This document shows, in pieces, positions 27,883 to 31,577 of a stretch of DNA of 48,001 bases (positions are counted from its first letter, which is position 1; the number at the start of each line of letters is the position of its first letter). Made by a program: the position numbers and the translations under genes. The notes under the pieces were generated by a model that had not been told where the DNA came from, did no database searches, and saw only the letters and a list, made by a program, of their open reading frames with translations. Source of the DNA: Deltaproteobacteria bacterium (GTDB lineage Bacteria > SAR324 > XYD2-FULL-50-16); assembly GCA_018645005.1 (NCBI GenBank), contig JABGPJ010000086.1, forward strand, positions 1 to 48,001. The letters are read 5' to 3'.

Positions 27883-29796
27883 TCAATTATATTTAATATC
27901 AAGGGCACTTAGAATTGACTGATTGTATTCAACCTCCATCTCTTTTTTCATCTGACCGATCAAGCTGCTGATCAGAATGTTTGCCTTTTGTCGTTTCAAC
28001 TCATTAACAAGGCCCTTATAATCATTGTCGTTTGCATGATTTGAAGCCCCTCCTTTTTTCCCGACCAGAAAGACGAGAAAGTTCTGATCCGTATCTGAAA
28101 TAGCTTTGAGACTGTTCTTTTCCATCTTGTAGACTTCAGTTCGGAAATTATCACTAATTCTAAACTCTCCGCTCTGTCTATCAGTAAAACCGAAAGTTAT
28201 GGTCTGAGGAGTAACACCCAGCTGGCTTGCCAGTTGATCAAATGCTGCCATTGATTTTGTTCCAGCCTGACCTTCTGCCATTTTTGTTTTTGCCATTTCT
28301 GCTGCTTTTTCCGATTTTGCCAGCAAAACAACCTTTTCCCTGACCTCTTTCAGTGGTTTAATAAAAGGGTCCACCACTTCAGAAATTTCATAAATGAGAA
28401 TCCCATCATCCGACAGACTAAAATATCCTCTGTCCTTGGCATTTTTAGATTTGATATCTTGGTAGAGTTGATAAGTATATCCGATTTCTTTAAGATTTTG
28501 TGCGTCATCAAATGCTTTGCTGGTCACAATTACCTTACCGTTCTCAGATGCCAGTTCATTCAGTGATTTATCCGTAAATTGTTTTACCAGTTTTGAAACC
28601 TTGTTCTTGAGTCGCCGGCCCGCTTTTCGGTTTCGAATCGTCTCAGCAATGCTCTTTTCGACCGCTTTAAACGATTTGACTGCCGGTTGTTTTTCATCCA
28701 GCAGTTCAACAATGTGATATCCAAAGTTGGATAAAAACGGTTTTGATAATTCGTTTTTTTGGAGATTCGCAACGGCTATTTCAAATTCTTTCACAAATGT
28801 TCCTTTTTCAACCCAACCGAGCATACCCCCATTTTTTGCTGAAACCGAATCTGCCGAATTTTCCCTGGCCAGTATCGGAAAATTTTTGGGGTTTTCCTTG
28901 AGCTGTTGATAGATTTGTTCCGCTTTATTTCTGGCACTACGCATCCCTTTCTCATTTCTATCTGTCGGCGCTGCAATCAATATGTGTCTCGACAAAAATG
29001 ATGCTTTAGATGAGAACTCACTCGCCCTGTTTTTTTCATAATAGCGTTTAATCTCTTTGTCTCTGACAATGACTTTGTCTTTCGTGTCTTTGACCCCTAA
29101 TGGGAAATAGTTTATCACAAACTGTTTTTTCTGCTGATAATCGGACTTGTTCCGGTCATAGAAACCTTTTATCTCCTCATCGCTTAGCTCAATATCCTCA
29201 GAAAACATATCCGATTTATATTCGATGACTTTGACTGTCATTTTGGTTTTATACCGGCGATACTCATCATCAGCAGACTGACGACTGATCAGAACACCAG
29301 AATTGAGCAGTTGGATATATTTTTCAGATAACAGATTTTCCCGCAGATCCTTTTCATAAAGTAGTTTATCAATTCGGTTACTTGTCAACATCCTGGCATA
29401 TTTTTTAGGATCAAACCGATTGTCGGTTTGGAAACCTGGCGTCTTGAAAATTGCTTGTGCTAATTCGTGGTCGGTAACGGAAAGTCCCAGTTTTTCAGCA
29501 CTTTTCAGCAGCAAAGCGCTATTAACCAACTGTTGAACAATCTGGCCCGGTAGATTTACCATCTTCATATAATCAGCCGCCTGACTCTTAAATCGCTGCC
29601 GAATCTCGTTTTGTGCCTGTTCAAACGCTCTCTGGTATTTAGATACCTTGATTTCATAACCATCGATTGTGGCGATGGTATTAATTCCCTGGTTTCTGTA
29701 AGCCGAGACACCGAAAAAAACCATCACCATCACCACAATGCCGACAATGAACTTCACACCAAACGACTGTACGTTATTTCGAATTAGATCTAGCAT
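27883..29796 (-). CDS. ppiD: Periplasmic folding chaperone/peptidyl-prolyl isomerase, PpiD-like (SurA N-terminal domain + parvulin)
   Basis: Inner-membrane-anchored periplasmic chaperone acting near the Sec translocon. Domains: one N-terminal membrane anchor (about 12-30), a SurA_N-like chaperone region (about 35-230), one parvulin domain (about 269-368, with LSRHILIAA, GGMLGWVEKGTFVKEFE and FGYHIVELLD), then a C-terminal region resembling PpiD. I choose the internal ATG at 29794-29796 (AAGGA upstream) because it gives the family's usual start MLDLIRNN; the frame extends to 29865. 637 residues, close to E. coli PpiD (623). It lies between the CULT-domain gene and the ZapB-like gene. Confidence 0.88.
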   Translation of the reverse strand: MLDLIRNNVQSFGVKFIVGIVVMVMVFFGVSAYRNQGINTIATIDGYEIKVSKYQRAFEQAQNEIRQRFKSQAADYMKMVNLPGQIVQQLVNSALLLKSAEKLGLSVTDHELAQAIFKTPGFQTDNRFDPKKYARMLTSNRIDKLLYEKDLRENLLSEKYIQLLNSGVLISRQSADDEYRRYKTKMTVKVIEYKSDMFSEDIELSDEEIKGFYDRNKSDYQQKKQFVINYFPLGVKDTKDKVIVRDKEIKRYYEKNRASEFSSKASFLSRHILIAAPTDRNEKGMRSARNKAEQIYQQLKENPKNFPILARENSADSVSAKNGGMLGWVEKGTFVKEFEIAVANLQKNELSKPFLSNFGYHIVELLDEKQPAVKSFKAVEKSIAETIRNRKAGRRLKNKVSKLVKQFTDKSLNELASENGKVIVTSKAFDDAQNLKEIGYTYQLYQDIKSKNAKDRGYFSLSDDGILIYEISEVVDPFIKPLKEVREKVVLLAKSEKAAEMAKTKMAEGQAGTKSMAAFDQLASQLGVTPQTITFGFTDRQSGEFRISDNFRTEVYKMEKNSLKAISDTDQNFLVFLVGKKGGASNHANDNDYKGLVNELKRQKANILISSLIGQMKKEMEVEYNQSILSALDIKYN

Positions 29797-29953
29797 CCGT
29801 GTATTCCTTTTAATTTTAGTATACTGAAGCTCTACAGGCAAAAAGCTAACCGCGCAATCAATCACTTTCAGTCAGATCAGGTCTAAGACCGGACAACCAA
29901 GAGATTTGTTTTGCAAAGCAAAGAAGCAATTTACCTAACAATCAATAATATCG

Positions 29954-30499
29954 TCAAATTAATGCGTCAAGAATCAACCCAAAAAAAGGTGATTCTTTCT
30001 CTGACTGAAAAAACCACCCAAGATGGGTCAAGCATTGACCGCATACGGCAACCTGCCACTGACATCCATGAAACCAGGCCCATTCAGAGGAAGGAACCCC
30101 CAGGACCACGCAGCCGTTCGCCTGTTCGAAACAACCGATATGGAACAGATCCCCCGCCGGATTTAAAAATGTATGATCAAAAGAGCCCTGGTGGCTCATC
30201 CGATATATCGGCCGTGAAATTTTATTTTCACACTGAAGGCATAAAATATATTTTTCCTCCTCCGACTTCTTTTGATTTTCTTTTTTGGTTTTTCCCTTGT
30301 TTTTTTTGCCGCCCTTTGCAACATACAAATAGTTTTTGATCAATTCAGGATTGAGAGGGCTTAATGTTTCCTCAAATTTTATCATTTCCAATTTATGCCC
30401 AATCGATTGTGACAATTCCAAGACCAATGAGCCGAATCCCAAGCTGAACCAAGGCGGTGTCAATCGTTTTTTCGCCATTTCCCCGGATATCCTGACCAT
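29954..30499 (-). CDS. CULT-domain (cereblon-like, thalidomide-binding domain) protein
   Basis: 181 residues. N-terminal 60 residues are unrecognised, followed by a Lys/Glu-rich linker (62-83) and a CULT domain (about 84-181). Zinc ligands Cys87-x2-Cys90 and Cys153-x2-Cys156 and the aromatic cage Trp142, Trp148 and Trp162 are spaced exactly as in human cereblon (Cys391/394; Trp380/386/400). The WF-x-G-x-x-W, HLGW and closing FFGLILDAL motifs are also present. No signal peptide, so probably cytoplasmic. Bacterial CULT proteins are known (one from Magnetospirillum binds thalidomide-like imides), but their native role is not. The start may be the ATG at codon 8 (30478). It is upstream of ppiD on the same strand. 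A longer frame on the opposite strand is a shadow. Confidence 0.88.
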   Translation of the reverse strand: MVRISGEMAKKRLTPPWFSLGFGSLVLELSQSIGHKLEMIKFEETLSPLNPELIKNYLYVAKGGKKNKGKTKKENQKKSEEEKYILCLQCENKISRPIYRMSHQGSFDHTFLNPAGDLFHIGCFEQANGCVVLGVPSSEWAWFHGCQWQVAVCGQCLTHLGWFFQSEKESPFFGLILDALI

Positions 30500-30725: not shown

Positions 30726-31577
30726 GTGACATCTAAATCCGCTTTTACCAAAATAATTACCCTCGGTCCTAAAGGAACTTTCAGTAATCAGGCCGCCAGT
30801 CTGGTCGGGGGAAATGATATCGAAAATATCCAGTACACGACCACTATACCTCAAATTACCCGTGAGGTTGAAAAAAATGAGAATGCGCTGGGCGTCCTTC
30901 CCATCGAAAACTCAACCTCCGGCATGGTGGGACAGGCACAAGACAGCCTGGTGGATTCCGATGTCGTCATCATCAATGAATTGCAGATCGATATCCAATT
31001 CAGCCTGGTTTCCCATGTTCCGCTGAGTGAAGTTAGACAGTTTTTTTGTCACTCGGAAGCCTTCAATCAGACGATGAGTTTCACTGCCGAGCATATGCCT
31101 GAGGCAAAAGTCATCTTTTCCAACTCCAATATCATCTCGGGAGAACTGTTTCTCGAAAGAGACCAGGAACCTGTCGCAGCTATTATTCCCAAAGCACTGG
31201 TCGCCAAAGAGAGTGTTTTCAAGCAAAAACTAGTTGCCAATGATGTTCAAGATTATGCGCAGAACATCACGCGATTCGTCGTTGTTCAGAAAACCCCGAA
31301 AAATTATGAGCCCGATTTCGCCAGGTATAAAACGTCGCTTGTACTTGAGTTTAAAGAAGATCGACACTCACTGTTATTCGAGTTATTAAGAGAGTTCCAC
31401 GTTTTTGGTGTCAATCTCTGCCGTCTGGAATCCAGACCAATGAAAAACAATCCCTGGAGTTACCGCTTTTTTATCGATCTCATCAACAACCATCGAGTGA
31501 AAACCTGTCTACAGGAGTTGCAGAATCAAGATATCGGGTTTCAGATTTTTGGCAGTTTCGACCGTATCTCAAAATAG
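30726..31577 (+). CDS. pheA: Prephenate dehydratase with C-terminal ACT domain
   Basis: Converts prephenate to phenylpyruvate for phenylalanine synthesis. The 283-residue protein has the PDT fold (about 8-190) with GPKGTFSNQAA (14-24), PIENSTSG (59-66) and the catalytic TRF motif (182-184). An ACT domain follows with ESRP (235-238), which normally senses Phe. There is no fused chorismate mutase. The ACT GAL motif is replaced (DRHSLL), so feedback by Phe may differ. Start is GTG with no good Shine-Dalgarno. lgt follows after 99 bp. Confidence 0.9.
   Translation: MTSKSAFTKIITLGPKGTFSNQAASLVGGNDIENIQYTTTIPQITREVEKNENALGVLPIENSTSGMVGQAQDSLVDSDVVIINELQIDIQFSLVSHVPLSEVRQFFCHSEAFNQTMSFTAEHMPEAKVIFSNSNIISGELFLERDQEPVAAIIPKALVAKESVFKQKLVANDVQDYAQNITRFVVVQKTPKNYEPDFARYKTSLVLEFKEDRHSLLFELLREFHVFGVNLCRLESRPMKNNPWSYRFFIDLINNHRVKTCLQELQNQDIGFQIFGSFDRISK

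Follow-up and report, generated by a model that had tools for sequence, protein, structure and literature searches.

A cereblon-like CULT protein of a SAR324 bacterium, its divergent pocket residue and a recurring tail motif among its bacterial relatives

We found that the window, the whole 48,001-nucleotide stretch of SAR324 DNA analysed here, encodes a protein which by its sequence and its predicted beta-tent fold is a member of the bacterial CULT family. It is a new member of an already known family, placed in a phylum that was not named in the 2015 survey of CULT proteins. The gene product is a cytosolic CULT domain, pinned by a putative zinc and carried on a charged N-terminal tail that is predicted to be disordered. 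The reading that we tentatively favour, with somewhat more doubt than belief, is that the CULT protein serves protein quality control as an adaptor, in which the tryptophan cage would read an imide and the tail would dock a partner. The features of the locus were as follows.

29954-30499, minus strand: ORF of the CULT protein, 181 codons with an ATG start, probably 143 codons counted from Met39
30386-30499, minus strand: residues 1-38, a doubtful coding extension 5' of Met39
30302-30334, minus strand: hydrophobic/basic tail patch NYLYVAKGGKK, residues 56-66
30251-30313, minus strand: residues 63-83, Lys/Glu-rich linker, predicted to be disordered for the most part (sequence, AF2)
29957-30250, minus strand: CULT (cereblon thalidomide-binding) domain, residues 84-181 (phmmer, AF2, Foldseek)
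30230-30241, minus strand: first zinc CxxC, Cys87-Cys90, invariant across the relatives' alignments
30074-30076, minus strand: cage Trp142, equivalent to W79 of MsCI4 (alignments)
30062-30064, minus strand: Cys146, replacing the pocket-anchoring Tyr83 of MsCI4 (alignments with MsCI4 and relatives)
30056-30058, minus strand: cage Trp148, equivalent to W85 of MsCI4 (alignments)
30032-30043, minus strand: second zinc CxxC, Cys153-Cys156, invariant across the relatives' alignments
30014-30016, minus strand: cage Trp162, equivalent to W99 of MsCI4 (alignments)
27883-29865, minus strand: ppiD-like SurA_N/rotamase protein, next gene downstream of CULT
30726-31577, plus strand: prephenate dehydratase gene (pheA), divergent upstream neighbour

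The ORF at 29954-30499 with its ATG start was present as the first-pass annotation had described it, and the residues listed there (C87/C90, C153/C156, W142, W148 and W162) were all found in it, together with the motifs WFHG, HLGW and FFGLILDAL and the Lys/Glu-rich stretch. The two CxxC pairs, read from the sequence, would hold one zinc. Compared with the PDB by phmmer, the protein matched MsCI4 (E value 3.8e-24) and, at E values of 6e-11 to 2e-8, most human cereblon chains, each of these matches covering residues 85-181; at the level of sequence, such similarity is far above chance. Pfam has no CULT model and its sole match to the ORF was a sub-threshold one to Yippee-Mis18, while NCBIfam gave no CULT model matching the protein. 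A template-free AF2 model, built from shallow alignments by a predictor that has seen cereblon, was a beta-tent with pLDDT mostly above 90 in the CULT domain, whereas nearly the whole of residues 1-66 stayed below 50. Foldseek placed MsCI4 first and human cereblon next, MsCI4 giving a TM score on the target of about 0.8-0.87 and 42% identity in the structural alignment; the best match was 4v32, the Y101F mutant of MsCI4, and the deoxyuridine complex 4v31 was also among the matches. The CULT identity claimed at first pass, with the cage and the zinc-ligand site, was thus borne out by phmmer, by AF2 and by Foldseek, the overlay of a predicted structure on cereblon having been named beforehand as one check. 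The ORF holds the CULT domain and the tail only, with no LON domain or DDB1-binding region, and no signal peptide was seen by eye. Antisense to the gene lies a 142-codon ORF with a TTG start (29911-30339, plus strand), most likely a shadow ORF.

The true start of the gene is likely, though not proven, to be Met39, because in the congener L018 an in-frame stop two codons 5' of the equivalent ATG excludes a longer start and because residues 1-38 had no convincing relative in a sequence search. The two proteins align from Met39 onward. By codon score, residues 1-38 ranked at the 23rd centile among true pieces, and a scan for strong Shine-Dalgarno sequences found none at any candidate start, both results being compatible with either start. 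Residues 1-38 may be untranslated. A tail of 45-83 residues therefore precedes the domain, depending on the start, and what had been taken as an unrecognised 60-residue N-terminal region comes down mostly to a start-codon question and a disordered tail.

With regard to the pocket, the W-6-W-5-C-3-C-6-W spacing was the same as that of MsCI4 in a residue-by-residue alignment, and the human chains, for which equal intervals had been claimed, align over the same span. We take the human equivalents to be W380, W386 and W400 for the cage, Cys391 and Cys394 for zinc and Tyr384 for Tyr83 of MsCI4. Across 21 bacterial sequences the cage tryptophans, the zinc cysteines and the hairpin NP (N113, P114) were invariant or nearly so. 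Two pocket positions differ from MsCI4, Tyr83 being Cys146 and Tyr101 being Phe164. In MsCI4, two flexible pocket regions are held in place by Tyr83 (PMC4449219); at this position Cys was also found in L117 and L150, and Phe or Tyr in most other relatives. The earlier description of an intact tryptophan cage hence holds, the three tryptophans being in place, but the pocket as a whole can be called intact only with the qualification that one pocket-ordering aromatic has been exchanged for Cys146. On alignment, Cys146 is the divergent pocket residue that the window member contributes.

The same pocket admits two other readings. The protein might be a small-molecule sensor, whose cage binds uridine, dihydrouracil, hydantoin or another free cyclic imide and whose ligand-induced pocket folding is signalled to a partner through the tail. 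MsCI4 binds uridine and thalidomide at low micromolar concentration and a third of its domain folds only upon ligand binding (PMC4449219), and the deoxyuridine complex stood among our fold matches; however, when 100 genes immediately next to CULT were scanned, the commonest families included no recurring gene of pyrimidine or other ligand metabolism, and the authors of the MsCI4 study were unable to place uridine in a biological context (PMC4449219). We regard the sensor as possible but unlikely. An enzyme that hydrolyses or otherwise processes the bound imide, as the related beta-tent enzymes MsrB and GFA do with their own substrates, appears very improbable: some beta-tent relatives are enzymes (PMC4287342) and hydrolysis products of ligands are present in the MsCI4 crystals 6r0s and 6r0v, but zinc ligands, cage aromatics and structural Gly, Asn and Pro make up most of the invariant residues, and no catalytic set is evident among them.

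The bacterial members were reported in the founding paper to be made up solely of the CULT domain (PMC4287342). At odds with that literature, tails are usual in the bacterial CULT sequences that we compared, lengths of about 18-60 residues being the norm in a set of 72 loci reduced at 75% identity of the domain, so the N-terminal region cannot serve as the distinguishing mark of the window protein for which it had been taken. The window protein itself departs from the single-domain organisation of Lupas 2015, which describes the 2015 set and is not required for homology. Long ORFs in a few relatives, such as L096 and L097, were considered as fusions to another domain and rejected, as they look like upstream run-on; L097 was read in this way because its motif follows an internal Met.

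An unsupervised search of the tails gave a six-column motif, hydrophobic-hydrophobic-[FL]-R-x-P, at a near-fixed distance from the domain, with a log-likelihood of 115.8 against 88.5 +/- 3.9 (maximum 94.2) in 12 shuffled sets. With five columns a hydrophobic run ending in Arg was obtained, above its shuffles, and with eight columns a different, acidic/polar pattern, also above its shuffles. A simpler pattern, a hydrophobic pair plus Arg at -26 to -36 from the first zinc Cys, was present in 28/65 non-redundant tails against 5.6 +/- 2.2 when shuffled; at 50% identity dereplication it was still significant (8/24 against 2.2 +/- 1.4), and it was rare in four control windows. This pattern and its range of positions were picked after the tails had been seen, and the unsupervised result is for that reason the fairer test. 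The window tail carries at the motif's place a degenerate patch, NYLYVAKGGKK, with neither Arg nor Pro. No earlier report of the tail motif, or of the CULT-LonC cassette described below, was found in the literature searched.

It is conceivable, though improbable, that the tail acts in cis, the PhiPhiRxP motif folding along the pocket and stabilising the liganded state with no docking partner. Such a role would agree with the near-constant distance of the motif from the domain and with human cereblon, whose N-terminal extension folds along the thalidomide site, touching flexible regions only (PMC4449219). Against it, the AF2 model of L105, a locus with a strong motif (tail HHFFFRIPSEKRDK), left the motif unplaced at pLDDT below 50, which is weak evidence as the alignment held 22 sequences and no ligand was included. 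A motif that the model leaves free of its own domain would fit docking in trans.

A first scan of genome contigs with a single query sequence gave no match. CULT was found in 17/52 genomes of the SAR324 phylum, in 39/395 of a Desulfobacterota-side phylum sample and in 21/399 of a second, proteobacterial phylum sample. Carriage by phages, plasmids or viruses was rejected, no CULT match being obtained in phage records, plasmid records or viral contigs at the sensitivities used, and no known defence or phage families of note were found. Two CULT subtypes were seen within SAR324, the MsCI4-like L018-L022 (family f1) and L023-L032 (family f3), the latter having longer loops and, in many cases, an N-terminus of the MFFVRP type, which suggests separate acquisitions.

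In six genomes of the window's family CULT lies between pheA and ppiD, directly upstream of ppiD on the same strand, and in three relatives that are 97-98% complete pheA and ppiD are kept together and CULT is absent; CULT is an accessory gene. One CULT-less relative has a different gene between the two, and that of L163:6925-7887 appears by eye to be radical-SAM-like (CxxxCxxC stretch). The relatives share an MLDLIRNN start for the ppiD-like protein, 23 codons downstream of the GTG with which the ORF begins here, and 29796 is probably its true start. We give very little credence to the CULT protein being a partner of the adjacent PpiD-like chaperone in SAR324. Their same-strand adjacency holds in 6/6 CULT-bearing genomes of the family, but the whole block is syntenic, with pheA-ppiD standing together without CULT in the three relatives, neighbours differ in other lineages, and the CULT protein has by eye no signal peptide; PpiD acts outside the cytoplasm. 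Nor do ppiD and pheA lend support to the adaptor role, since they stay together in relatives without CULT.

The wider survey of gene neighbours, proposed at first pass as a further check, was answered in part: no neighbour family was common to CULT loci across lineages, and in one Desulfobacterota clade a cassette of CULT with a LonC-type protease gene and a BFN gene was found. The cassettes lie as follows.

L124, 9843-13680: order CULT-LonC-BFN
L126, 9844-13315: order CULT-LonC-BFN
L168, 3414-6709: order CULT-LonC-BFN
L167, 4929-8408: order LonC-BFN-CULT
L169, 1918-5569: order LonC-BFN-CULT

In the first order (L124, L126 and L168) the gaps are 444, 87 and 13 nt. The linkage was thus found in five genomes of one Desulfobacterota-side class in two gene orders, which amounts to two independent events at most, and it surfaced after a scan of many neighbour families. 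LonC was not within five genes of CULT in L166 and L127, and L125 ends at a contig end. The cassette proteases carry the domains AAA_32, LonB_AAA-LID, LonC_helical and Lon_C, and their nearest solved sequence is the TTC1975 peptidase/LonC, 4fwd; the BFN product carries the bifunctional-nuclease domain PF02577. With Ser and Lys motifs kept and no canonical Walker A, the proteases resemble the ATP-independent LonC of PMC3391209, an enzyme that breaks down unfolded proteins without ATP and has been proposed to clear damaged proteins. That the linkage has been kept in either gene order points to a functional connection within this clade.

LonC as the general partner of CULT was rejected by co-occurrence. 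No full-length LonC was found in the window's assembly (68% complete) or in any CULT-bearing SAR324 genome, and in the 395-genome sample, counted by hand across two tables, LonC was no commoner with CULT (19/39) than without it (240/356). Among the SAR324 genomes examined LonC and CULT were mutually exclusive, full-length LonC occurring only in f4 and CULT only in f1 and f3. Protein-isoaspartate methyltransferase was also dropped as a co-occurring partner, being uninformative because it is nearly universal (51/52 SAR324-phylum genomes have one). As to other neighbours, genes for a BatD-like and a Bat-like membrane protein precede CULT on the same strand (-1, -2) in the proteobacterial loci L131, L132, L133 and L136, and a rhodanese-like gene follows it on the same strand (+1) in L139, L140, L143 and L150.

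In the adaptor that we propose, the cage would read a cyclic imide, the remnant of the breakdown of an Asn or Gln residue and most probably an aspartimide or glutarimide at a C-terminus. The short hydrophobic/basic tail peptide would then dock the CULT protein to a quality-control partner, for which it would serve as substrate adaptor; in the one Desulfobacterota clade this partner would probably be the adjacent LonC-type protease, and in SAR324 it would have to be something other than LonC. The cyclic-imide ligand is extrapolated from human cereblon, which reads C-terminal cyclic imides as degrons (PMC11974815, PMC12117711), and the tail docking and adaptor function are likewise our own proposals. 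The recurring tail motif, together with the CULT-LonC cassette of one other lineage, would lend the adaptor some support; the degenerate motif of the window tail, the lack of a neighbour shared between lineages and the absence of LonC in SAR324 count against it. In the literature searched, we found no case of a bacterial CULT protein binding or degrading a protein with an imide end. A broader idea, possible though doubtful, is that prokaryotes have an imide-degron pathway of their own with bacterial CULT proteins as its tethered adaptors, the cage picking up C-terminal cyclic imides and the N-terminal PhiPhiRxP peptide passing the client to a protease (in one Desulfobacterota clade LonC, in other lineages a different one), and that the damage reading of cereblon predates ubiquitin.

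Bacterial cereblon-like proteins were described in 2015, and drug chemistry relies on MsCI4 as a workhorse. Two features of the relatives, the tail motif and the CULT-LonC cassette, offer concrete, mutable handles on a partner, and with a recurring motif and a Lon-type protease neighbour in one lineage a damage-clearing role becomes testable. Should these hold, imide-damaged proteins would have been recognised before the ubiquitin system arose, and imide compounds might serve to steer bacterial proteases in the way that they steer human cereblon. The more interesting facts sit in the relatives; the window itself adds Cys146 and a SAR324 member.

Among known systems, MsCI4 (MGR_0879 of Magnetospirillum gryphiswaldense) is the closest, sharing the CULT domain, the zinc site and three cage tryptophans at equal spacing with 42% identity; the window protein differs from it in having Cys146 for Tyr83, Phe164 for Tyr101, a longer charged tail and an origin in another phylum (SAR324). 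The thalidomide-binding domain of human cereblon has the fold and the cage in common with the window protein, in which Phe164 presumably corresponds to human Phe402. The window protein, in contrast, is without the LON domain and the DDB1-binding region, and we know of no cereblon-type ubiquitin system in bacteria of this kind. Yippee/Mis18 (PF03226) has a related beta-tent fold, but the match was below the family cut-off and that to cereblon far stronger. The folds of SspB and ClpS are unrelated to CULT. The likeness to these adaptors of ClpXP and ClpAP lies in the proposed layout only, a binding domain, a flexible linker and a short terminal docking peptide (PMC8138137); for SspB the layout is also credited to a 2003 SspB study listed among the references of PMC7226468. 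Unlike in SspB and ClpS, the docking partner of CULT is a proposed one, and the candidate docking peptide is present in relatives and degenerate in the window. SspB docks on ClpX by its peptide, and the CULT adaptor would be its proposed counterpart, in keeping also with the logic of cereblon itself.
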